Made by a program: the position numbers and the translations under genes | From: a virus | Direction: 5' to 3' (one strand) | IMG/VR virus record: IMGVR_UViG_3300046003_005071 | Coordinates: 1-28,286 of that record | DNA: 28,286 bases | The notes under the pieces: generated by a model | Told to the model about the DNA's origin: nothing | Database searches by the model: none | What the model saw: only the letters and a program-made list of their open reading frames with translations | Shown here: positions 1-27,975 of the stretch, one piece after another | Position numbering within the stretch: position 1 is the stretch's first letter | Layout of the letters: every line of letters begins with the position of its first letter

Positions 1-939
1 AATTATGGTTTATATGAGAATCAATTTGTAGCTTTAGATGTACCAATGATTGAAGAAGAAACTAATCCAACTGATAAAATCACTATGGATGTTCCTTTAT
101 TTATTCGTATGTTAGAATACGCTAGAGAAGATGCTAAAACTGATATGGATTTGCATGATGTGACAGAAAAAGCGCTTGCTTTAAGTACCTCTGGTGAAAC
201 GCTGACTATGGCGAACTATGAGAGTATTGCAGGTAAATCGTTGAATGAAGCTGAATATTCCGGTTTTAATTTTTATAATTATGTTCCTTATTCTTTTTCT
301 CCTGACACTAATACTTTAAATAAAGAAGAGCATGATGTTATGATGAGGGATTTAAAAAAAGATAGAATAAAATTTATAGATTACATAGAATTTGTTAATT
401 CTATGAAAAATATAGATCCAATATATAAAAGTATTTTTAGTAAATTAGTTAATTCAAATGGGAAAAAACTTAAATTTGCTTTAGATCAAGATATGCTTTT
501 AGATGATTTAAAAGATGATGATGTTAATTATATTAAACTTCAAAAATTTAAAAAGTTTTATGAAGAATATAAAGAATCATTTCCTAATTGGGCTTCTGAA
601 AATGAAAGATTATACAGAGATGTAATACAAGCATTAAATTCTTCTTTAAATGAAGCTGAATATCATGGTAAGGAAGTATCTCTTGGAAAACCTAAACGTG
701 GTGGGTCTAAAAAATTCTTTGTTTATGTGAAAGATGGAGATAAAGTTAAAAAAGTACAATTTGGGGATACAACAGGTCTTTCAACTAAGGTAAATAATCC
801 TAAAGCTAGAAAAGCATTTGCTGCTCGCCAAAACTGTGATAGAAAAAAAGACAGAACAACTCCTGGATACTGGGCTTGTAATATTGGAAAATATTGGAAG
901 TCATTAGGGGGAGCTAAAAATTTTAGTGGATACTGGTAA
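1..939 (+). CDS. Modular virion-associated protein, 5' end outside window
   Basis: The frame is open from base 1, so the gene begins upstream of the window; the first in-window ATG is at 46. Numbering from that ATG, residues 15-60 form an acidic helical segment (MDVPLFIRMLEYARE). Two near-identical junctions follow, SLNE-AEYSG at residues 65-72 and SLNE-AEYHG at 200-207, bracketing a lysine- and aspartate-rich helical middle part. The C-terminal part (about 215-297) is basic and contains FVYVKDGDKVKKVQFGD, a KARKAFAARQNC segment and a final aromatic GYWAC...YW pattern. I recognise this small domain type from marine T4-like phage head-cluster proteins but cannot name it. Both SLNE junctions fit the [LI]xE rule of T4 gp21 processing, so the protein may be cut into pieces in the prohead. 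That is inference. The stop overlaps the next ATG (TAATG). Confidence 0.75.
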   Translation, partial: NYGLYENQFVALDVPMIEEETNPTDKITMDVPLFIRMLEYAREDAKTDMDLHDVTEKALALSTSGETLTMANYESIAGKSLNEAEYSGFNFYNYVPYSFSPDTNTLNKEEHDVMMRDLKKDRIKFIDYIEFVNSMKNIDPIYKSIFSKLVNSNGKKLKFALDQDMLLDDLKDDDVNYIKLQKFKKFYEEYKESFPNWASENERLYRDVIQALNSSLNEAEYHGKEVSLGKPKRGGSKKFFVYVKDGDKVKKVQFGDTTGLSTKVNNPKARKAFAARQNCDRKKDRTTPGYWACNIGKYWKSLGGAKNFSGYW

Positions 940-1307
940 TGGATAATTTAAACGAGAAAAAAGCAGATAGATGTTTACGTATTGCCAGACGTAAAAACCC
1001 AAAATCATCAGCATATAGATCAGGTCAAATTGTTAGATGTCGTCAAGGTGATATTTGGAAAAATATAAAAGAAGCCTTTAATCAACTTCTTCAAGAAGAT
1101 GAATCACTTTATAAGTGGTTTAAACGTCAAGGTCCTAAAGGTAAAGAAGGTGGATGGGTAGATTGTAATGCTCCTGATGGAAAAGGAGGATATAAAGCCT
1201 GTGGTAGAAAAAAAGGTGAAAATAGATCTAAATACCCTGCTTGTAGACCTACTCCTGCTGGATGTAAAAGAAAAGGTAAAGGTAAAACTTGGGGAAAAAC
1301 AAAATGA
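939..1307 (+). CDS. Small basic cysteine-containing protein, candidate head-packaged
   Basis: The protein has 122 residues and starts in a TAATG overlap with the preceding stop. Residues 7-40 are basic (RCLRIARRKNPKSSAYRSG). A helix ending LLQE at 50-53 is followed by DESLYKWFKRQG and a glycine-, lysine- and cysteine-rich C-terminus (GGWVDCN, KACGR, YPACRP, GCKRKGKG). The C-terminal part resembles a short recurrent phage/viral domain with the GWVDC and YPACRPT signatures, whose function I do not know. Its strong positive charge suits DNA contact inside a head, which is inference. The LLQE-D junction is a possible prohead-protease site, as is the very early LNE at 4-6. The stop TGA overlaps the next start (ATGA), so translation is probably coupled. 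Confidence 0.7.
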   Translation: MDNLNEKKADRCLRIARRKNPKSSAYRSGQIVRCRQGDIWKNIKEAFNQLLQEDESLYKWFKRQGPKGKEGGWVDCNAPDGKGGYKACGRKKGENRSKYPACRPTPAGCKRKGKGKTWGKTK

Positions 1308-1849
1308 TAAAACTTAGAAATATATTAAATGAGATTAAAGTTAACCCTAAAGAAAAAATAGGCTATGGGGATGAGGGAAGCATATATAATATAGGAACAA
1401 ATAAAGTTGTTAAAAAATCCACCAGAGGTTTTACCCAAAATGAAATAGAAAATTATCAACTTTTTAATCAATATCCTGATTTGTTTCCCCATATTTATAA
1501 ATTAACTAAGGATTATGTTATTATGGACAAATTAAATTCTCCAGGGAAACCATTAATGGATGTTTATAATTTTTTAGATAATATAGATCCATCAACAAAA
1601 AATTCTATGCCTTGGAGAGAAGAAGATTATTTAACAAACTTATATTATGAAGATAATAATTTAGAAATATTCAATCAAATTCTTCAAAAAGCAAAAGAAT
1701 TAAATAGGATGGATGTATATAATACATTAAAAAAATGTTTAAATTTCATAACTAAATTAAAAAAATTCTTCAAAAATAAACCTATAGATGTACATTTAGG
1801 AAATGTAGGAATTGATAATAATGGAGAAATAAAAATATTTGATTTATAA
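1304..1849 (+). CDS. Minimal kinase-like protein with capsid-targeting-type leader
   Basis: From the ATG at 1304 the protein has 181 residues. An in-frame ATG at 1289 exists, but 1304 gives an ATGA overlap and places the leader MIKLRNILNE at the very N-terminus, matching the next genes. After the leader comes IKVNPKEK and then a glycine-rich loop, G20-x-G22-D-E-G25-S-I-Y28. A candidate beta-3 lysine lies in VVKKS (36-39), a helix NEIENY (46-51) could supply the paired Glu, and a hinge-like strand YVIMDKL is at 71-77. The end of the protein reads D162-V-H164-L-G-N167 followed by IKIFDL, matching a kinase-type catalytic loop (DxHxxN) and metal-binding Asp (D180). It stops directly after this Asp, so no activation segment or C-lobe helices remain. 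A minimal phosphotransferase delivered with the virion is plausible; a non-catalytic pseudokinase is the alternative. Confidence 0.65.
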   Translation: MIKLRNILNEIKVNPKEKIGYGDEGSIYNIGTNKVVKKSTRGFTQNEIENYQLFNQYPDLFPHIYKLTKDYVIMDKLNSPGKPLMDVYNFLDNIDPSTKNSMPWREEDYLTNLYYEDNNLEIFNQILQKAKELNRMDVYNTLKKCLNFITKLKKFFKNKPIDVHLGNVGIDNNGEIKIFDL

Positions 1850-1851
1850 TT

Positions 1852-2265
1852 ATGATAAAATTGCAAAACATATTAAAAGAAATAGAAGGTAAATGTCCTG
1901 AATCAACTCAAGATATTAATCTTAATTTACAAAATAGACAAAGTGCTATTAAAAATCAAGGATATGGCCCTCTAAATCCAAATTTACCTAATGATAAATT
2001 TTGGGATAAAAAGGTACAAATGTGGCAATTAGATAATGTTGAGGAAGCCAAACAATCACTCTGTGGTAACTGTGCTGCTTTTGATATAACAGAAAAAACA
2101 TTAGACTGTATTGCTAAAGGTATTGGTACAGATGAAGGTAGTGAAGATCCACATGATGTAATTGAAGCTGGAGAGCTAGGATACTGTAGATTTTTAAAAT
2201 TTAAATGTGCAGCTTCGAGAACATGCGATGCCTGGGTTGTAGGAGGTCCTATAACAAATAACTAA
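1852..2265 (+). CDS. Cysteine-rich small protein with MIKL-type leader
   Basis: The protein has 137 residues. Its leader MIKLQNILKE (1-10) is almost the same as those of the flanking genes and ends in L-K-E followed by I. The body carries a cysteine pattern, C71-x2-C74, C86, C112, C119 and C125, embedded in CGNCAAFD, ELGYC and KCAASRTCDAW, ending in GGPIT. This spacing could ligand a metal or iron-sulfur cluster. I recall similar Cys-rich C-termini in marine T4-like phages, without an assigned role. It starts in the TAATTATGATAAAA context two bases after the previous stop, the same arrangement as the genes at 2268 and 2646. The likely fate is packaging in the head with leader removal, by analogy with T4 internal proteins. 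Confidence 0.7.
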   Translation: MIKLQNILKEIEGKCPESTQDINLNLQNRQSAIKNQGYGPLNPNLPNDKFWDKKVQMWQLDNVEEAKQSLCGNCAAFDITEKTLDCIAKGIGTDEGSEDPHDVIEAGELGYCRFLKFKCAASRTCDAWVVGGPITNN

Positions 2266-2267
2266 TT

Positions 2268-2636
2268 ATGATAAAGCTTTTAAATATATTAAGTGAAATA
2301 CGAATTAATAAACCTGGTATTCCTAAATTTAAAAATAATGATGAATTAGCTAATTATTTAAAAAAAAATTCATTAGGTAAAAAACGATTAATAGATCTTA
2401 TATGGGATGATCCTGAATGGGATCGTCAAGGAGAGGGTTGGGAAGATGTATTAAATGGGTGGTATAATGCTGATATAATACAATACAGTAATTATAATGA
2501 AGAAGATGAAATAATGATTGATGATGATAATGATAATAGAGTTTATATATCAATTGTTCCTTTACCTTATGATCCGGGTCTTATAGATCATAAAGTAGAA
2601 TTTGGTCTTAATACAATTTATTGGCAATATTTTTAA
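2268..2636 (+). CDS. Acidic small protein with MIKL leader and EIRINKP junction
   Basis: The protein has 122 residues. The leader MIKLLNILSE (1-10) is followed directly by IRINKPGIP, the same junction found repeatedly in the long ORF at 7603. The remainder is very acidic and aromatic (DDPEWD, GEGWEDVLNGWYN, EEDEIMIDDDND) and ends in a hydrophobic, probably beta-rich part. I recognise no enzyme motif. The gene links the two groups: it combines the N-terminal leader of the genes at 1304, 1852 and 2646 with the NKP junction of the polyprotein. An acidic DNA-mimic-like role is conceivable from the charge but unsupported by homology. Confidence 0.7.
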   Translation: MIKLLNILSEIRINKPGIPKFKNNDELANYLKKNSLGKKRLIDLIWDDPEWDRQGEGWEDVLNGWYNADIIQYSNYNEEDEIMIDDDNDNRVYISIVPLPYDPGLIDHKVEFGLNTIYWQYF

Positions 2637-2645
2637 ACAATAATT

Positions 2646-2990
2646 ATGATAAAATTAAACAATTTACTAAACGAAGCAGCATTTGATAAAATATTCCATC
2701 TTAATGGAATTCTTATTGTAGATGGTACCGCTAGAAATCAAAAAGACATGTTATCTGATGTTCGTGCTTTACCTGGTATTACAGTAGTACGAAATGTAGA
2801 GATGGAACAAGATCCAACTTCAAGATATTTTAGAAGTAGACTAGAAATGAAAATAGATCCTTATCCATATGTTAAACAAAATAAATTTAACGGAGAAGAA
2901 ACAATCCAAATTATAGCGAATAATATTAAAAAAGTACCTGGTGTAATAGGATTTAAACAAGAGGGCACTATTACTACTTCTGAAGTATAA
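2646..2990 (+). CDS. Ferredoxin-like-fold small protein with MIKL leader
   Basis: The protein has 114 residues and starts in the same AATTATGATAAAA context as the two genes before it. The leader MIKLNNLLNE (1-10) is followed by AAFD rather than the IxxNKP junction, so the part after the E varies while the leader is kept. The body alternates hydrophobic strands and helices: a strand GILIVDGTA, a helix with DMLSDVRALPG, strands ITVVRNVEM and SRLEMKIDPYPYV, a helix IQIIANNIKKVPG and a final strand VIGFKQ. This order is consistent with a beta-alpha-beta-beta-alpha-beta (ACT/ferredoxin-like) domain. The fold call is from pattern only and no catalytic residues are evident. The stop overlaps the next start (TAATG). 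Confidence 0.65.
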   Translation: MIKLNNLLNEAAFDKIFHLNGILIVDGTARNQKDMLSDVRALPGITVVRNVEMEQDPTSRYFRSRLEMKIDPYPYVKQNKFNGEETIQIIANNIKKVPGVIGFKQEGTITTSEV

Positions 2991-5847: not shown

Positions 5848-7161
5848 ATGGAGTATCAAGATATATTTAGCCCTCAAACTTTAGAAAAATTAAATAAAAA
5901 GTCAGCCGAAACATTGAAAGATATGTTAGGTAATAAGACTTTAATGCAAACCCTTATTTCATCACAAGATATATTAAATCAAATAGCTAAAGCTGAGGCT
6001 CCTTATAAGTCTCAACTAGAACAATTAGCTGTTAACATGATGAAAGAACTTTATCCTGTTATAGATGAAGAAGGAATTATCATAGATGCTAAACTAGGCA
6101 GTATATCTGACGTAAATAAATCATTAGATGAAACTCTTACTCCTGAAGGTCGCCGTCGTATCATAAATGGTATTACACAAGGTGCTGCTTTAAAAGGAGC
6201 ATTTGCTTTTTATTTATTTAAAGAACATTTAGATGAATTAGATCCATCATTAGTAGAAAAGTATAGTCAAATCATGAAAAATTCATTTGGGATATATCAT
6301 GATCCAAATGCTGTAGCTATGATGTTAGCTCAATTAGCTCAAGGGCATAAAATGGCTGGTGGTTCTTCTAAAGTTATTATGAAAGAAATAGAAGATTCTG
6401 GTATTACAATAAAAGCCCGTGCTATATGTTTTCCAATGTTAATTCATGAAATTAATAAAGGATTACACGAATTAATTTCATTACAAGGATTTAAAGGAGA
6501 TAAAGCAGCTAACCAAGCAGTAGTTAATAAAGTAGATACTTTAGCTAACGAACCTAACGATATAAAATATGGTCAAATAATTTATGAAGCATTAAACGAT
6601 CTATTCATAGACAGTAAATACTCAGATGAACCTAGACTTAGAGAATATTTCTTACAAGATGTATATCAATTAGAAGATGATGAGTTTTTATCATTAGTTG
6701 AAAATTCTATTAATGAAGAAGTAACTCCTCAACAAAGAAAATGGGTAGATGATACTTTAAGAGATATAAAAGATGATCTAAAAGCTGATGATTATGATTC
6801 TACTGGATTAGATGAAAATTTTAATTTAAGAAAATATCTATCTAAAAATAAACTTCTACAGGAAATCAAAGTAAATAAGCCTACAACAATAGATTTTAAA
6901 AAATGGGGATTAGGTTATGCTACTGACTATATTTTACATATTCATCCTATTGATAATTATAGACCATGGATTGATGGTAAGGTTTCTGGAAATAAAGTAA
7001 CATTATGGACTGAAGGAGATGATTTAGAGGGTATAAAATTTTTAGATAAACTAGGAAAACAATTAAATAGTAAACTAAAATCTGGTAATTATAATACTAT
7101 AGAATTAAATGTCTTTGAACAAGATTTACAAAAATTACTTAATTTTAAAAATGATGACTAA
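5848..7161 (+). CDS. Chimeric protein: helical structural domain plus EIKVNKP module
   Basis: The protein has 437 residues. Residues 1-300 are largely helical and globular, with a conserved-looking core IKARAICFPMLIHEINKGLHELISLQGF (around 190-217). I do not recognise a named family, though similar cores occur in unassigned marine phage proteins. Residues 300-330 are charged helices. At 331-339 a leader-like helix LRKYLSKNKLLQE ends in L-Q-E, followed by IKVNKPTT and a 98-residue C-terminal module that looks like one of the polyprotein segments. The ORF thus appears to be a large protein with a leader-plus-cargo cassette fused to its end. Cleavage after E339 would release the cargo. It overlaps the next gene by about 11 bases. 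Confidence 0.7.
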   Translation: MEYQDIFSPQTLEKLNKKSAETLKDMLGNKTLMQTLISSQDILNQIAKAEAPYKSQLEQLAVNMMKELYPVIDEEGIIIDAKLGSISDVNKSLDETLTPEGRRRIINGITQGAALKGAFAFYLFKEHLDELDPSLVEKYSQIMKNSFGIYHDPNAVAMMLAQLAQGHKMAGGSSKVIMKEIEDSGITIKARAICFPMLIHEINKGLHELISLQGFKGDKAANQAVVNKVDTLANEPNDIKYGQIIYEALNDLFIDSKYSDEPRLREYFLQDVYQLEDDEFLSLVENSINEEVTPQQRKWVDDTLRDIKDDLKADDYDSTGLDENFNLRKYLSKNKLLQEIKVNKPTTIDFKKWGLGYATDYILHIHPIDNYRPWIDGKVSGNKVTLWTEGDDLEGIKFLDKLGKQLNSKLKSGNYNTIELNVFEQDLQKLLNFKNDD

Positions 7162-7603
7162 CTTTAACATTAAACAATACATCACAGAAAATAAACTTTT
7201 ACAAGAAATTAAAATAAATAAACCTGGAGTTAATTTTTATTTTGAACAAGATGAATCTGATGATGAATCTTATGACTATCATGATAATCAAGGTGGTTAT
7301 TATTTATTTATGGGTGATGAGTATTTAACAATGAATTCTCATTTAGATGATGAATTAGGTTATGATGATAAAGAATTTGCTCCTAATATTGATGAAAATA
7401 ATCCTGAAGAAATTGATGATTTAATAAGTTTTATAGAGGATATAGATCCTACTTATGACACTGATGAATTAAAAATTATGATAAATAATTTTAGAAAATA
7501 TAAAATTCCAATTTATGAATTTAGTTTAGATGGAGATGGAGGATATATTTTTGTTAATTTAACTATACGTCATCAAGATATTTTACCTTATATTAAAAAA
7601 TAA
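7151..7603 (+). CDS. Acidic small protein with ITENKLLQE leader and IKINKP junction
   Basis: The frame is open from an ATG at 7109, but the tandem ATGs at 7151/7154 overlap the previous stop and put the leader at the N-terminus, so these are preferred. From 7154 the leader is MTNFNIKQYITENKLLQE (18 residues), followed by IKINKPG. The leader matches the internal one of the gene upstream (KNKLLQEIKVNKP). The remaining 130 residues are extremely acidic (QDESDDESYDYHD, EENNPEEIDD) and end in short strands and helices. No enzyme motif is seen. The stop overlaps the start of the 1615-codon ORF (TAATG), so the two are probably co-translated. Confidence 0.65.
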   Translation: MMTNFNIKQYITENKLLQEIKINKPGVNFYFEQDESDDESYDYHDNQGGYYLFMGDEYLTMNSHLDDELGYDDKEFAPNIDENNPEEIDDLISFIEDIDPTYDTDELKIMINNFRKYKIPIYEFSLDGDGGYIFVNLTIRHQDILPYIKK

Positions 7604-10600
7604 TGAACGAAATTAAAATAAATAAACCTAAAATTTCATCACCTTTATCTGAGGAAACTAAAAATATTATCAAAGATAGAGTTGTAAAGTATATAAAAGC
7701 AACAATAGGAGACTATAACAATTTAGTTTTATATGATTTACTTGATGATACTTACATATCTGAAGGAGATAGTAATTATGATATAGTTGCTTCTTTTATT
7801 ATAAAACAAATGATAGCTAACAATTATGAATTATATTATGATGGTGAGGAAATATTACTTACTAATTCTAATTCTAATCTTGTAACTAGAGAAGATATTG
7901 AAAATTATCTAGAAGAAAATACAACATTAAAAAAATATTTAGAAAAAATAACTTGGGAGTATTATTTTGATGAAATTAATATAGATAATATATATTCTAA
8001 ATGTATTAAATATGTTAGAGATTATATAGAAGGTTGGGGAGAAGGAGAATTTGATAAATATGATTTTGAAAAAATGACTGATAAGACTTTAGATAATCAA
8101 GATCATCTACAACCTGATGATATTTTTAATTATAATCCTGAATTTCAAGATTATCTACAAGTTAAATTTTTAAAAGCAGATAAATTAAGTGAAATTCAAA
8201 TTAATAAACCAGGCCAATTTATTAAACTTAACCTACCTAAAGATTTAGATAGACTAGTTGATACTATTGATTATGGTAATATTGAGGATTCTGTGAAGGA
8301 ATTAATAGTATTAAATCCTCAAATACCTTCTAATATAATTTATCAGGAAGGAGCTATAGATGATGTACATCATGAATCAGAATATCCAATTTCTTCTTTA
8401 AAAGATATTATTAAAATTTATTTTAGATTTGTACCTGTTTATTTATTTTATTATTATAATGGGTATAACCAAGAAGAAACTGAAGAACAATATAAGGAAA
8501 TGGATAGATTTGCTAAAGAAGCTATGAATGGAAAATGGACAATTATACCCCAAATAACAGACTTTAAAAATGACAAACCTTATGATGAGGATTTAAATGA
8601 AATCAAAGTAAATAAACCTGCAGTAGGTGTATATTTTTTAACTCCTACAGTTAAATATTATATTAAAAATCCCGATATTTGGGAAAATGATACAGATGCA
8701 GATGATTTATATGATTATTTAAAATATAATGAGAGTGAAGATATAGCGGATGCTTTTATTATAGTTATAGAATTAACTAAAGATAATAAAACTATATCTA
8801 AAACTGATATAGCTAACTATATAAAAGAGAATGAATTAGATAGTACAGTTGAAGATTATATAGAATTCCTTAAAGATTATGGAGCTATAATGAATAATAA
8901 TAACTTAGATGAAAATCAACTTCTTAGAGAATACCCTGAAAGCACAGTATCTAAAATATTAACTAAATGGGAAATGGATCCAAATCCTCAATCCCAAGAT
9001 TCTAAGGTAAAAGCAGCAAGAGCTTTAATTACTCGTTTTGAGCAAATTAAAAGTAGTATCCCCCAAAAATTAGATATATTAGTTATACCTGATGAAATAA
9101 AGAGAAAAGATCCTAGAAATATAGAACTTTATTCATTAGAAGATATGATTAAATTAATCAAATCTTACCCTGAAAATCCTGATAAAGTTAAAAAAGATGC
9201 AATTGAAAATTTTGCAACAAAATACCAAATTGATAAAGCTACAGCTCAATCTTATGTAGCTCGTTTTATGACTAAAAAGGATAATTTAAAATACGCTGTA
9301 GAAAATGGAACTGAAGACGGAAATTTTACCAAAGAAGAAGTATTAGAATTAATACCAAAACGTTTACTCCAAAATAATCTTTATTTAGATCCTCGTAACT
9401 GGCAATGGCAACCTTTTGAACAGGCATTAGATTCTTTATTCCCTTCACAAAAACAAGTAACTGGAGAAGAAGGAGATAATGAAGCTACAACAGACGCTGA
9501 TAAAGTTTATGATAAAGATGGTATAGAAATTTACCAAGGAGATGATGTTCATAAATGTATCTCATATAATCCTGTTGATACTCAAACTAAAAGAAAAAAA
9601 TATGGTTGGTGTGTGACTCAAATAGGTAATACTAATTATGATTATTATAGATTTGCAGAATCTTCACCTACATTCTATTTTGTATTTGATAGATCTAAAG
9701 AATCAACCCCAGAACATTCTCCTTTTAAAGATCAATGGCATGCATTTGTAATTCAAGTTAATACTGACGGAGAATCTTATGTAATTACATCAGCAGATAA
9801 TAGAGGAGATACAAGAGCTGCATCATGGGAAGCGATACCAGAAATAGTACCAGCTGATACGTGGGCTAAAATTAAAAACTTAAAACAATATTTTAAACCT
9901 ATAGCTTTATCAGCAGTTGAAAGAGGAAGAAAATTTGTATCAGGTAAAAATTTATCTTTAGATGAATTTAAGGAATTAAATCAAGATGAAAAAATACTTT
10001 ATATACAAGGTAAAGCCTCTAAAAATACTTTATCTAATGATATTTTAAGTATTTTATCTCAATATAAAATTAGTTTAGAAGGAAGATCAACTACTTTAGC
10101 TAATGTAGCTATTGATAGTGGACAAACTTTCCCTTATTCTATCTTAAAAGATAATGAAGCTTTAGCTAAAAGATATGCTATATTTAGATTTAGACATACT
10201 AATTATGGATCAACTCCTATCCCTCTACCTTATGTTAAATATCTAGATGAACCTGGTCAGAAAAAATACTATGAAGAATTTGGTAAAGGCGGTTCTGAAG
10301 AATCATTTTTAACTTTTGAATTAATAGAAAAGTATTTTGGAAAAGAAGTAACTAAACAATATGTTAATTCACAATTGAAATATTTAGGTTTTTTACCTCC
10401 TGAAGCTGTTAATTATATTGATAATCCTAAATTAAAAATTTTATTTAAGGCGGTATCTAAATTATATGAACCTTGGAAATATGGTAAGTATACTAATATA
10501 TCTGATGAAGAATTAGCAGATGCTAAATCACAACCTCCTCAAGATGTAACACCTATACCTATAGATGTTAAACAATGGGCTAAATTAACTTCAGAAGAAA

Positions 10601-12450
10601 GAAAAATCCTTATAGAATTAACTGAAAAATATAACAAAAATCCAGATTATCTTGAATTAATGTATGCTTCTCCTTTTATTATAAAAGATAAAGGACAAAC
10701 TTTAATTTTACTACCTGAACCTAGTTCAGATGGTACTTATGATAAATGGGTATTAATAAATGATCAAGATAAAGTAATTAAAAGAAACATATCAGGTGAT
10801 TCCACTTTAGGTGGAGACCCAATAGCATCAGGATATACTAACGGTGCAACTGATGACTTAAAAAGAGTATATGATATGAGTGATTTAGAGATAGAAGAAT
10901 CTGATTCTAAATCATTAGACGAAATTAAAGTAAATAAACCTAATGATCCTGTAAATTCTTTAACAAGATTATTAGACAATATTCCTAATGAAAAATATTT
11001 CCCTGAATTAGAAGATTATGAAGGAGAAGAAAGATATGACGATAGTGATATGGTAGATGCACTTTATTATCCTATTTTTGATGATTATATAAAAGGTAAA
11101 CCTGGAGTAGAAGGAGATAATTTTGATAAATGGGCTAAAATAGAAAGAGAAAAAAATGATGGTGAAACAGGCCCTTTAGAAAGATTATTAATTGATAAAA
11201 TCCTAGATATAATAAAAGATTATAGAAACCAACAAGAAGAATTAGGAGAAATTCAAATTAAAAAACCTGCAATAGGTAAAATTTGGATAGGAAGAGAATT
11301 AAAATCAGCTTTAAGGGATAAGGGAATGGATCTTAATGATATTTTGATATATTATAAAAATGATTACATATTACTAAATATAGATACTTATAAAAAATAC
11401 AAAGAAGAAGAAATTAGTAATTATTTAAAATCTTTAAAATTCCAACCTACATCTATTCTTGAACAAACAGTGCCTTCAGTTCATGGTGGTGATTATTATA
11501 CATGGATGGTAAAATGTATAAATCCTAATCCTGAAAAATCTGAAATTAATGATGGGAATGATCTTTGGGAATTAATGAAACCTGAATTTGAACTTGATAT
11601 AAAAGAGTTATTAGATGAAATTCAAATAAATAAACCAGGAAGGGGAAAATTAGAAGTAGAAGTAAATATAAATACTAGGTCAGGAAATATTTATTTTACC
11701 TTTAATTTAAATGGTGATAATTTTTTAATTTCTACATCTTATTTTTCAAAAGATTATGTAAGTGTTAACCTTGATGAAGAAGATATATATTCTGATAGAT
11801 TACATGAAGATGTGATAAATTATTTAAATAAGAATAGAATTCCTTTTGCAATTAGTAATGAGGATAATGATTCTATAATAGATGGTGATAAATTTGAAAT
11901 ACCTGAAGATCCTGAAGATATGTTTAATCGTGATATACTCATAAATAAAAAAGATTGTTTAGTACCTAAAAAACATCAAGAAAACTTTAATAATCTAAAT
12001 GAAATTCAAATAAATAAACCTAAAATTGGAAGTACAAAGGATCAAATACTTGATAAAGGAGAATATAAAATTAATGGAAACACTTATGAGGTATTAGAAT
12101 TTGATCCTTGGGGAGGAGGATGGGGAGGTACGCATCCTCCTACTAAAAATCATGTTTGGCTCCAAAAAAAAGGAACAAAAGCTAGTGATATACACCGAGG
12201 AAATTATGTAGATTATAGAAAAATATTAGATACTCTAAATGAAATTCAAGTTAATAAACCTAATACACTTAAATCTTTAGTTACATCTTATACAAAGTAT
12301 TTAGAAAGTATTTCTCGTGCTGAAATGTTTGATGAAAGTGGTAATTATAATTCTACATTAAAAAATTATCATAATAAATTAAAATATTATGCTGAAAATG
12401 GAACAAAAGAAGAACAAACCTCTGCTAATTTTATATTAGGCTTAATATAA
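7603..12450 (+). CDS. Candidate head-packaged polyprotein, 1615 residues
   Basis: This uninterrupted ORF starts MNEIKINKPK, already at the junction motif, and repeats [L]xE-I-[KQ]-[IV]-[NK]-KP after E197, E333, E1107, E1216, E1339, E1467 and E1547; a diverged LLRE-Y junction is at E443. The motif divides the protein into segments of 194, 136, 110, 664, 109, 123, 128, 80 and 68 residues. The segments are mostly dissimilar, so this is not a simple tandem repeat protein, and only the junctions are conserved. T4 gp21 cuts after [LI]xE, and the same junction follows the leaders of separate genes at 2268, 6859 and 7154. My reading is a polyprotein of internal virion proteins processed by the gp21-like protease encoded at 27361. 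A multi-domain tail or ejection protein with a repeated linker motif is the main alternative. Confidence 0.75.
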   Translation: MNEIKINKPKISSPLSEETKNIIKDRVVKYIKATIGDYNNLVLYDLLDDTYISEGDSNYDIVASFIIKQMIANNYELYYDGEEILLTNSNSNLVTREDIENYLEENTTLKKYLEKITWEYYFDEINIDNIYSKCIKYVRDYIEGWGEGEFDKYDFEKMTDKTLDNQDHLQPDDIFNYNPEFQDYLQVKFLKADKLSEIQINKPGQFIKLNLPKDLDRLVDTIDYGNIEDSVKELIVLNPQIPSNIIYQEGAIDDVHHESEYPISSLKDIIKIYFRFVPVYLFYYYNGYNQEETEEQYKEMDRFAKEAMNGKWTIIPQITDFKNDKPYDEDLNEIKVNKPAVGVYFLTPTVKYYIKNPDIWENDTDADDLYDYLKYNESEDIADAFIIVIELTKDNKTISKTDIANYIKENELDSTVEDYIEFLKDYGAIMNNNNLDENQLLREYPESTVSKILTKWEMDPNPQSQDSKVKAARALITRFEQIKSSIPQKLDILVIPDEIKRKDPRNIELYSLEDMIKLIKSYPENPDKVKKDAIENFATKYQIDKATAQSYVARFMTKKDNLKYAVENGTEDGNFTKEEVLELIPKRLLQNNLYLDPRNWQWQPFEQALDSLFPSQKQVTGEEGDNEATTDADKVYDKDGIEIYQGDDVHKCISYNPVDTQTKRKKYGWCVTQIGNTNYDYYRFAESSPTFYFVFDRSKESTPEHSPFKDQWHAFVIQVNTDGESYVITSADNRGDTRAASWEAIPEIVPADTWAKIKNLKQYFKPIALSAVERGRKFVSGKNLSLDEFKELNQDEKILYIQGKASKNTLSNDILSILSQYKISLEGRSTTLANVAIDSGQTFPYSILKDNEALAKRYAIFRFRHTNYGSTPIPLPYVKYLDEPGQKKYYEEFGKGGSEESFLTFELIEKYFGKEVTKQYVNSQLKYLGFLPPEAVNYIDNPKLKILFKAVSKLYEPWKYGKYTNISDEELADAKSQPPQDVTPIPIDVKQWAKLTSEERKILIELTEKYNKNPDYLELMYASPFIIKDKGQTLILLPEPSSDGTYDKWVLINDQDKVIKRNISGDSTLGGDPIASGYTNGATDDLKRVYDMSDLEIEESDSKSLDEIKVNKPNDPVNSLTRLLDNIPNEKYFPELEDYEGEERYDDSDMVDALYYPIFDDYIKGKPGVEGDNFDKWAKIEREKNDGETGPLERLLIDKILDIIKDYRNQQEELGEIQIKKPAIGKIWIGRELKSALRDKGMDLNDILIYYKNDYILLNIDTYKKYKEEEISNYLKSLKFQPTSILEQTVPSVHGGDYYTWMVKCINPNPEKSEINDGNDLWELMKPEFELDIKELLDEIQINKPGRGKLEVEVNINTRSGNIYFTFNLNGDNFLISTSYFSKDYVSVNLDEEDIYSDRLHEDVINYLNKNRIPFAISNEDNDSIIDGDKFEIPEDPEDMFNRDILINKKDCLVPKKHQENFNNLNEIQINKPKIGSTKDQILDKGEYKINGNTYEVLEFDPWGGGWGGTHPPTKNHVWLQKKGTKASDIHRGNYVDYRKILDTLNEIQVNKPNTLKSLVTSYTKYLESISRAEMFDESGNYNSTLKNYHNKLKYYAENGTKEEQTSANFILGLI
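7612..8193 (+). other. Polyprotein segment 1 (residues 4-197)
   Basis: The segment begins IKINKPKIS and has no leader beyond MNE. It is helical and acidic, with a part LVTREDIENYLEEN that resembles KTDIANYIKEN of segment 3, suggesting these two segments are diverged duplicates. It ends at KLSE-I. Mature boundaries are predicted only. Confidence 0.4.
8194..8601 (+). other. Polyprotein segment 2 (residues 198-333)
   Basis: The segment begins IQINKPGQF. A hydrophobic aromatic stretch (IKIYFRFVPVYLFYYYNGYN) sits in its middle, followed by charged helices. It ends DLNE-I. No known fold is recognised. Confidence 0.4.
8602..8931 (+). other. Polyprotein segment 3 (residues 334-443)
   Basis: The segment begins IKVNKPAVG and is helical and acidic. 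Its C-terminal half resembles segment 1 (DIANYIKEN). It ends with LDENQLLRE, a full leader-like helix that precedes the large segment 4. Confidence 0.4.
8932..10923 (+). other. Polyprotein segment 4, large 664-residue module (444-1107)
   Basis: This is the only segment that starts without IxxNKP (YPESTVSK). Residues 444-640 are helical and charged. Around 645-760 lies a domain with HKCISYNP, KYGWCVTQ, SPTFYFVFD, WHAFVIQVN and YVITSADNRGD; I recall this Cys/Trp/Tyr pattern from large phage proteins but cannot name it. It is followed by a helical motif of the type LSLDEFKELNQDEKILYIQG and further helical regions to about 960. A final beta-containing part (LILLPEPSSDGTYDKWVLIND) leads to an acidic linker and SLDE-I. 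The size and layering suggest an ejected enzyme or structural protein. Confidence 0.45.
10924..11250 (+). other. Polyprotein segment 5 (residues 1108-1216)
   Basis: The segment begins IKVNKPNDP, is rich in Asp, Glu and Tyr (ELEDYEGEERYDDSD), and ends with a helix QQEELGE. No known fold is recognised. Confidence 0.4.
11251..11619 (+). other. Polyprotein segment 6 (residues 1217-1339)
   Basis: The segment begins IQIKKPAIG, the only copy with K instead of N in the NKP part. It contains a basic helix (GRELKSALRDKGMDLND), short strands and an aromatic GGDYYTWMVKC part. It ends with the leader-like helix DIKELLDE. Confidence 0.4.
11620..12003 (+). other. Polyprotein segment 7 (residues 1340-1467)
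   Basis: The segment begins IQINKPGRG and is followed by a clear beta-strand series (KLEVEVNINTRSGNIYFTFNL, FLISTSYFSKDYVSVNL), then a helix DVINYLNKNRIPFAIS and an acidic tail. It ends FNNLNE-I. Confidence 0.4.
12004..12243 (+). other. Polyprotein segment 8 (residues 1468-1547)
   Basis: The segment begins IQINKPKIG and has a compact glycine- and tryptophan-rich middle (EFDPWGGGWGGTHPP) with probable short strands. At 80 residues it is among the smallest. It ends KILDTLNE-I. Confidence 0.4.
12244..12447 (+). other. Polyprotein segment 9 (residues 1548-1615)
   Basis: The segment begins IQVNKPNTL and is a single helical stretch (SLVTSYTKYLESISRAE, YHNKLKYYAENG) that ends the ORF. It is the only segment with no further junction. 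Confidence 0.4.
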
Positions 12451-26053: not shown

Positions 26054-27361
26054 ATGACAGTTCAAAACTTATATACTCAATATTTAGATGGTAAAGTAAC
26101 CAAAGCTAAATTTCTTTACGAGGTGCGCAGAGATCAAAATCTTACTATGATTTCACATCATAATAATTTCGATGATACTGTTAAAATCCTTAAAAATAAA
26201 AATATCATCTCAGAAAAAGCTTCAAAAGAGTCTAAACAACCAACTGGAAAGCAAGAAGTAGATGTTATAGCTAAAACTATTGATATGGTTAACCCATATG
26301 AGTATTCTAGAGGTATGAAATATGAACTTGAAGTATTAGAAACACCAGTTACATCAGCTGATTTATCAGAAGATAATGTACTTAAAGCTCAAAAGAAAGT
26401 ATTAGCTAATCTTACTAAAAATTCACAATTTTATTTTGATAAAATTTATGGTGGAGATAATAAAGTTGTAAGTGATAAATGGATTGAAACTACTAAGAAA
26501 AATATCGATGCCATTGGTAAAGGTAAAGCTGCTAAAGGCTTAATGAGAGAAGGAATAGAACCTAAAAAAGGTGATGAAATTGTTTGGATAGCACCGCCTA
26601 AAGAAGTTGCTAGACTAGTTAGAGTTATGACAGGTGCTAAAGGTAAATATCTAGGTAGAGAAGGTGGTGAAGAAGTTGTATCTTTTAATGGTTATAATTT
26701 TTATACTAGTAGAGGAACTTTTGAATTAACTAATCAAAATCATATTAGAGAAGGATATGACAATAGTGGTCTAGTAAAAGAAGATCAACAAAATGCTATC
26801 TTTGAAAAATACGCTCAAGCTACAGGTATTCCTTTAGAAAATCTTAAATCTATGGTTAGAGATGCTAAGGAAAAAAAAATAAAAGAACATGGACAATATT
26901 CTGATAGGGTAGCTGATGTTAATGCTGATTCATCTCCTATAAATGAAGAATGTGATGATTGTGAAAGAGAAACTACTAGTGAAGATATAGATTTAGGTCA
27001 TCAAGATAATGAACCTCGTATGATTAAAGGTGAATTATACCAAATTGTTAAACAGGCTACTGAATTATACAAAATAATTGATTCTGTAGATAATATGGGA
27101 GAAATTGATTTTCCTCATTGGTGGCAAGCAAAAATTGTTTTAGCTAAAAATTACTTACAAGGATCTAAAGATTACTTAGATAGTGCTTTAGCAATAGGTA
27201 ATGAAGAAGGAGAAATGGATGATGAATTAGAAGAAGATATTTTTAAAAAAGGAAATCAACAAGTAGTAGCAAGTACTCAACAATCTAAAACAGCCTTAAG
27301 AACTGCAGGATATCAACAGATTCCTAATACTTCAGATGTAACTTCAATAAGTAAAGGGTAA
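26054..27361 (+). CDS. Multi-domain head-cluster protein upstream of the protease
   Basis: The protein has 435 residues. Residues 1-55 ([25 protein letters not shown], then [16 protein letters not shown]) form a helical module that I recall from marine T4-like phages. Residues 170-230 are a small strand-rich part ([44 protein letters not shown]). Residues 325-380 are helical ([38 protein letters not shown]), a W-x-Q-x-K-I motif common in such head proteins. The tail is acidic, then Gln/Ser/Thr-rich. No T4 counterpart is clear. The stop overlaps the protease start (TAATG), so it is probably co-translated with it. Confidence 0.7.
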
Positions 27362-27975
27362 TGAGTAAATCACTATTAATAGAATACGCCTTATTCACCC
27401 CTAAATCAGTACTATCTGAAGGAAGAGGTGATAGAAACTTAATGGTTGAAGGAGTAATCCAAAGAGCTGACTCTAAGAATCAAAATGGTAGAGTTTACCC
27501 TAAAGATATTCTTGAAAGAGAAGTTGAAAAATATGTTCAAGGGCCTATCTCTGAAAATAGAGCCTTAGGTGAATTAGATCATCCTGAATCAATGGTGATC
27601 AACCTAAAAAATGTATCTCATAATATTAAAAAATTATGGTGGAATGGAGATGATTTAATGGGTAAAATAGAAGTATTACCTACTCCAAGTGGTAATATAT
27701 TAAAAGAATTATTCATAAATAAAATAACTGTAGGTATTTCATCTCGTGGTATGGGCTCTGTTCAATCATTAGGAGAAGGTACAGTAGAAGTACAAGACGA
27801 TTTTGAATTACTATGCTGGGACTTCGTATCTACTCCATCAACACAGGGCGCTTTTATGACACCAACAGGATTAAGTGAAGGATACAAACCTCAATACGAT
27901 AACAAATACTCAAAAATAAATACACTAATATCAGATATTATTTGCTCACAAGCTGGTATCTGTTGTATAAGATAA
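27361..27975 (+). CDS. Prohead protease (gp21-like)
   Basis: The protein has 204 residues and is a serine protease of the herpesvirus assemblin/T4 gp21 fold. The signature VIQRADSKNQNGRVYPKDIL (33-52) starts the fold; the catalytic His is H74 in LGELDHPES, and the nucleophile is S127 or S128 in VGISSRGMG, with D154 in CWDFVSTPS. T4 gp21 cuts scaffold, major head protein and internal proteins after [LI]xE and also itself. The length is near T4 gp21 (212). It is preceded by a TAATG overlap and followed by a terminator. This enzyme is the candidate processor of all the [LI]xE-leader proteins and the polyprotein to the left. Confidence 0.95.
   Translation: MSKSLLIEYALFTPKSVLSEGRGDRNLMVEGVIQRADSKNQNGRVYPKDILEREVEKYVQGPISENRALGELDHPESMVINLKNVSHNIKKLWWNGDDLMGKIEVLPTPSGNILKELFINKITVGISSRGMGSVQSLGEGTVEVQDDFELLCWDFVSTPSTQGAFMTPTGLSEGYKPQYDNKYSKINTLISDIICSQAGICCIR

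Follow-up and report, generated by a model that had tools for sequence, protein, structure and literature searches.

T4 injects an ADP-ribosyltransferase, Alt, together with its DNA, and the locus described here raises the question of whether a kinase might be delivered to the host by a comparable route. The window, meaning the whole stretch of 28,286 nucleotides of viral DNA that was analysed (IMG/VR record IMGVR_UViG_3300046003_005071, positions 1 to 28,286), carries near its start a gene whose 181-residue product an initial annotation had read as an unusually short kinase behind a packaging leader, and had proposed to be a virion-delivered phosphotransferase acting early on host proteins. 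Every motif quoted there (the leader, G20 to G25, VVKKS, YVIMDKL, D162 to N167, and IFDL) is present in the translation. The features of the gene are listed below, with the evidence for each in brackets.

1304..1849, plus strand: gene for the minimal kinase-like protein, 181 aa (ORF translation and relatives)
1304..1333, plus strand: leader MIKLRNILNE, a capsid-targeting-like propeptide with predicted cleavage after E10 (leader pattern and the T4 CTS rules of PMC9026906)
1334..1846, plus strand: predicted mature kinase-like body, residues 11-181 (AlphaFold2, Foldseek, and hhalign)
1361..1378, plus strand: glycine-rich loop G20-Y-G22-D-E-G25 (G20 in 20 and G22 in 22 of 23 family members)
1412..1414, plus strand: beta-3 lysine K37 (invariant, 23/23)
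1514..1534, plus strand: beta-5/hinge segment YVIMDKL, residues 71-77 (AlphaFold2 and alignment)
1787..1804, plus strand: catalytic-loop-like D162-V-H-L-G-N167 (D162 in 21/23; Asn or Gln at 167)
1829..1849, plus strand: metal-binding strand IKIFDL, residues 176-181, and stop codon (K177 and D180 invariant; the chain ends at D+1)

The reading frame opens with the ATG at 1304 and closes with the stop codon at 1847-1849. Its ATG overlaps the stop codon of an upstream DUF5872-like gene (ATGA), and the next gene starts 2 bases past its own stop. Orthologs with 57-70% identity occur in three other viral contigs, and a fourth contig holds a decayed copy; the presence of these orthologs indicates that the open reading frame is a real gene. 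As a rule, DUF5872-like, Cys-rich, and cupin-like genes recur in their neighborhood. The upstream neighbor in the window (939-1307), which is conserved near the kinase-like gene, encodes a small basic Cys-containing protein with weak similarity to DUF5872 (E=8e-5, under the cut-off), and its start, MDNLNE, likewise holds an L-x-E motif. At L009:3950-4010, the kinase-like gene is without its 5' end, there is a frameshift near a run of A, and an upstream ORF reads into the gene; this damage could reflect either decay or sequencing error. Relatives of the kinase-like protein were absent from the bacterial and archaeal genomes searched, and tblastn against named phages gave no usable match for the window protein, its ortholog, or two relatives, so that no cultured phage can be named for the protein.

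Taken alone, the window protein had no phmmer match in the PDB and only a chance match in Pfam (IL3, E=0.045), while as a single sequence it matched PHROG 15752, a T7 gp0.7 kinase family, at E=7e-4. A single sequence thus gave almost nothing in Pfam or the PDB, and it was the addition of relatives that made the case for a kinase firm. Gp0.7-type kinases of 11 phages were aligned to build a profile, which in hhalign was matched by four members with P=2.2e-7 and a score of 51.4 (maximum of 60 column shuffles, 21.6), and by ten members with the leader removed with P=1.4e-10 and a score of 72.0 (maximum of 100 column shuffles, 20.6). Specificity was controlled by comparing 127 leader-carrying bodies individually with this T7 profile; kinase-like candidates took all of the first 12 places, and no other body scored above 21.1. 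Independent matches, though weak, also led to kinases: one relative matched PHROG 18305 at E=1.9e-6, relatives matched the Pfam families ABC1 (E=1e-4) and Kinase-PolyVal (E=1.4e-3), and the best sequence match in the PDB was the type III effector kinase NleH1 (E=8.5e-5). The general protein kinase model PF00069 was matched by one relative only, at E=0.094.

Structure prediction points the same way. With five sequences, AlphaFold2 gave a model with a pLDDT of 78.4 and a pTM of 0.70, in which the elements follow the order b1-b2-b3-aC-b4-b5-helices-b7-b8; a single-sequence model was poor (pLDDT 45.5), and a fold search with it returned no matches. The predicted N-lobe comprises the glycine loop, the beta-3 lysine, five strands, and helix C, so that the kinase N-lobe and nucleotide-pocket residues, the absence of which had been named as grounds for abandoning the kinase assignment, are predicted to be there. 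The comparison with kinase and APH folds that had been proposed as a check gave APH(2'') and methylthioribose kinase as the best Foldseek matches in the PDB (E=1.6e-4, probability 1.00); TM-scores to solved kinases are low (0.34-0.47 normalised by query), and the model is based on five sequences. The best viral matches were phage proteins, several of them annotated as kinases, down to E=6e-8. The kinase-like identity claimed at the outset is therefore borne out by the gp0.7 profile match, the kinase-fold matches, and the conserved catalytic residues.

A wider search brought the family to 23 distinct members with an intact C-terminus, falling into 14 clusters at 60% identity. All 23 aligned sequences have K37, K177, G169, Y28, and D180; the catalytic Asp is aligned in all except two, and the Asn position is Asn or Gln throughout. 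Two of the initial readings need adjustment in this light. The lysine pointed out in VVKKS does lie in the beta-3 segment (NKVVKKS, residues 33-39), but the conserved residue is K37 rather than K38; and the DVHLGN loop holds up at D162 and at position 167 but not at H164, which is replaced by W, Q, N, or A in relatives.

The chain ends exactly at D180+1 in 19 of the 23 members (as FDL, LDI, LDF, and so on), the others ending at D+3, +3, +7, and +10; this common end point makes the short length a trait of the family rather than the result of damage. Kinase motif VII reads [VI]K[IL]xDFG, and the terminal segment of the family, G-x-[IL]-K-[IL]-[FL]-D-[LIF], resembles it, from which it follows that the proteins stop inside the DFG. 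The full C-lobe of a canonical protein kinase, with its activation loop, APE motif, and helices F-I, is absent, and with it the usual peptide-binding platform. It is not provided by the next gene, a possibility that was rejected because the downstream gene differs between relatives. The protein is thus unusually short when set against ordinary kinases, as the initial annotation had it, but not against its own family, and the shortening has published precedents in polyvalent-protein kinases that have lost the entire C-terminal subdomain (PMC5512222) and in bacterial effector kinases that are injected and retain only motifs I-VII (PMC4588518). Judged on sequence, the comparisons establish a relationship with the protein-kinase family, conserved catalytic residues, and a conserved truncation.

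Other leader-carrying proteins end in the same way without clearly joining the window family. A kinase-like group (L072, L092, L128, and L135) with the pattern DFRPENIM...MIDW-stop matches the T7 kinase profile and is possibly separate from the window family, and a 145-aa protein at L079:3546-3980 also matches that profile. One contig, L155, holds two different leader-carrying kinase-like genes near each other.

The leader is shared well beyond the kinase-like proteins. Four genes in the window, namely the kinase-like gene and the three after it, begin with MIKLxNhLxE, where none would be expected by chance; the three that follow, each recognized by the leader pattern, are:

1852..2265, plus strand: second leader-carrying protein, MIKLQNILKE, with a Cys-rich body
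2268..2636, plus strand: third leader-carrying protein, MIKLLNILSEIRINKP
2646..2990, plus strand: fourth leader-carrying protein, MIKLNNLLNEA

A degenerate DNA pattern for the leader found at least 119 stretches in viral contigs, and pattern loci together with earlier loci gave at least 236 unique leader ORFs in at least about 75 body clusters, counts that show the diversity of the cargo and not the frequency of the leader in each cargo family, because the leader itself was the bait. By Pfam, the cargo includes zeta-toxin-like P-loop kinases, GNAT acetyltransferases, alpha/beta hydrolases, and a match to RNA 2'-phosphotransferase; several other cargoes resemble ADP-ribosyltransferases by eye. 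The first ten residues are conserved, in part because the search pattern dictates them, and conservation drops past position 11. Among 216 leaders there are 206 distinct 30-mers with many synonymous differences, so that a recent DNA repeat was rejected as the origin of the leader and selection is taken to act on the peptide. Less biased evidence comes from the closest family found by protein similarity, where the leader is on all four intact members, the window protein included; in the kinase family as a whole, it is on 21 of 21 members with a present and intact N-terminus (that of L053 in a variant form), a frequency that is partly by construction, since some of the relatives were fetched with leader-containing patterns.

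The conserved positions of the leader are 4, 7, 8, and 10, with an L-x-E motif at its end. In T4 IPIII, packaging needs no more than the first 10 residues, of which 4 and 7 are important in targeting and 8 and 10 in processing; the protease gp21 cuts after L/I-x-E (PMC9026906). A candidate for the corresponding enzyme is encoded in the window:

27361..27975, plus strand: gp21-type prohead protease, candidate leader-cleaving enzyme (PHROG 207, head maturation protease, E=1.9e-55)

In the same direction as this gene lie terminase and portal genes, and together they mark the window as a piece of a tailed-phage genome with head proteolysis of the T4 kind; the kinase-like gene lies about 19 kb upstream of the terminase and portal genes and is co-directional with them. 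The prohead protease is also present in three of the five contigs with relatives. What was called a packaging leader accordingly has the length and conserved positions of a T4 CTS in a phage that encodes a gp21-type protease, although packaging as such is inferred. Because the leader so closely resembles a T4-type head-packing tag, the protein is probably injected with the phage DNA, a conclusion drawn from sequence comparison.

The account that we favor, with moderate confidence, is that of a virion-delivered minimal phosphotransferase of the protein-kinase superfamily, relieved of its leader and acting on host proteins at the onset of infection. Residues 1-10 would serve as a capsid-targeting propeptide that brings the precursor into the prohead core, where the gp21-type protease would cut it after E10. 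By alignment and prediction, the remaining 171-aa body consists of an N-lobe, with the glycine loop and K37, and the part of the C-lobe that holds the catalytic loop (D162 and N167) and D180. This mature body would be ejected with the DNA and would use ATP to phosphorylate one host protein or a few as infection begins, much as T7 gp0.7 does once it has been synthesized. The absence of the remaining C-lobe would be accounted for by selection for a cargo small enough to be accommodated among the DNA and to go through the portal. The main doubts concern catalysis, a protein as the substrate, and whether the leader really serves in packaging, and the alternatives divide along these lines.

On the matter of substrate, the protein might instead be a virion-delivered enzyme that phosphorylates a small molecule or a nucleic acid component, akin to APH and methylthioribose kinase, which are its best Foldseek matches in the PDB; the D-x-H-x-x-[NQ] loop, moreover, is common to APH-type and T7-type enzymes. 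APH-type enzymes, however, owe their small-molecule specificity to a helical C-terminal subdomain that the window protein lacks, and by sequence profile the best links are to the gp0.7 protein kinases and NleH1, and we consider such a role distinctly unlikely. It is likewise unlikely, if slightly less so, that the fold has been kept in a pseudokinase or ATP-dependent binding protein acting through the binding of a host factor or through other nucleotidyl chemistry. A full C-lobe and activation loop are missing, and the variable H164, the change of Asn to Gln at 167, and the two members without an aligned D162 mean that some members may be inactive; yet K37, K177, and D180 are invariant and D162 nearly so across 14 divergent clusters, the pattern that selection for catalysis would produce, and the class of effector kinases includes minimal kinases restricted to motifs I-VII (PMC4588518).

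Doubt about the leader would be met by an ordinary kinase-like protein that is synthesized inside the infected cell and whose leader does something other than direct packaging, serving for instance as a common helix meant for a different partner. T7 gp0.7 sets the precedent, as it is not packaged and works from early expression, and the searches found no family model of the MIKLxxILxE leader. Against this stand the T4 CTS length, conserved positions, and L-x-E motif of the leader, its occurrence on many unrelated bodies in phages with a gp21-type protease, and its conservation at the amino-acid level despite many synonymous differences, by which it is not just a DNA repeat; we rate this reading as improbable. 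Finally, the stop directly after the metal-binding Asp and the damaged L009 copy might suggest a kinase gene that has been truncated or has decayed, or a resemblance arising by chance. This was refuted by the alignment, in which 19 of 23 members share the same end point, and with the controlled profile similarity and the conserved catalytic core it is left with a negligible probability.

The favored account, a packaged minimal protein kinase, combines ingredients that are each already known: T4 Alt and internal proteins, T7 gp0.7, polyvalent-protein kinases, and NleH/OspG-type kinases. With the gp0.7 family (PHROG 2828/15752/18305), the window protein shares a compact phage kinase domain with G-loop, beta-3 Lys, and D-x-H-x-x-N loop, the metal Asp being reached near the domain end; gp0.7 differs in having an N-terminal extension, residues past the metal Asp, and usually a basic C-terminal part, and in being without a leader and made early rather than packaged. 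The window protein has neither the gp0.7-type C-terminal basic/host-shutoff region nor a location in an early region before an RNA polymerase gene. T4 internal proteins and Alt resemble it in the 10-residue leader, its key positions, the L/I-x-E cleavage motif, and a gp21-type protease in the genome, whereas the leader sequence differs (MIKLxxILxE against MKTYQEFIAE of IPIII), cleavage is here predicted, and the cargo is a kinase-like body and not the Alt ADP-ribosyltransferase. Polyvalent-protein kinases, found in phages and prophages and as stand-alone proteins in Bacteroidetes, lack the C-terminal subdomain in its entirety (Iyer et al., 2017; PMC5512222), and in this respect the window protein resembles Kinase-PolyVal (PF18762); this model had no match to the window protein, and one relative reached 19.1 bits, under the 27-bit cut-off. 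NleH/OspG-type effector kinases are also minimal, with motifs I-VII only and no activation loop (PMC4588518), and NleH1 is the best PDB sequence match; they differ in being secreted by a type III system into eukaryotic cells, with another leader and other targets.

No description of this combination, or of the family, was found in the literature searched. A broader proposition, which we advance tentatively and would give slightly less than an even chance, is that a clade of mostly uncultivated T4-type phages loads a large range of interchangeable effectors via one shared ten-residue tag, MIKLxxILxE, among them exceptionally small kinases that end inside the D-F(-G) metal-binding motif with their own C-terminus at the active site. 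If it is right, the leader would be a sequence handle for predicting the injected proteins of uncultivated phages, dozens of small uncharacterised proteins would become testable effector candidates, and the leader-carrying bodies in L030-L148 provide a candidate catalogue of injected phage effectors. The family would also show how little of a kinase suffices, since all complete members end within 10 residues of the metal-binding Asp and most at the next residue, and would represent a packaged counterpart of T7 gp0.7, active before any phage gene is expressed.

Leader-like sequences occur elsewhere in the window in a different arrangement. A 1615-aa ORF (7603-12450) contains eight xxEI[KQ][VI][NK]KP sites, of which one lies at its start and the other seven are internal and separate distinct segments; it was not found in the contigs of relatives, a negative result obtained without a control, and is possibly a polyprotein cut by the prohead protease into many packaged proteins. 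The same motif, as LLQEIK[VI]NKP, lies inside two further ORFs, 5848-7161 (residue 337) and 7109-7603 (residue 31), ahead of the C-terminal or main domain.
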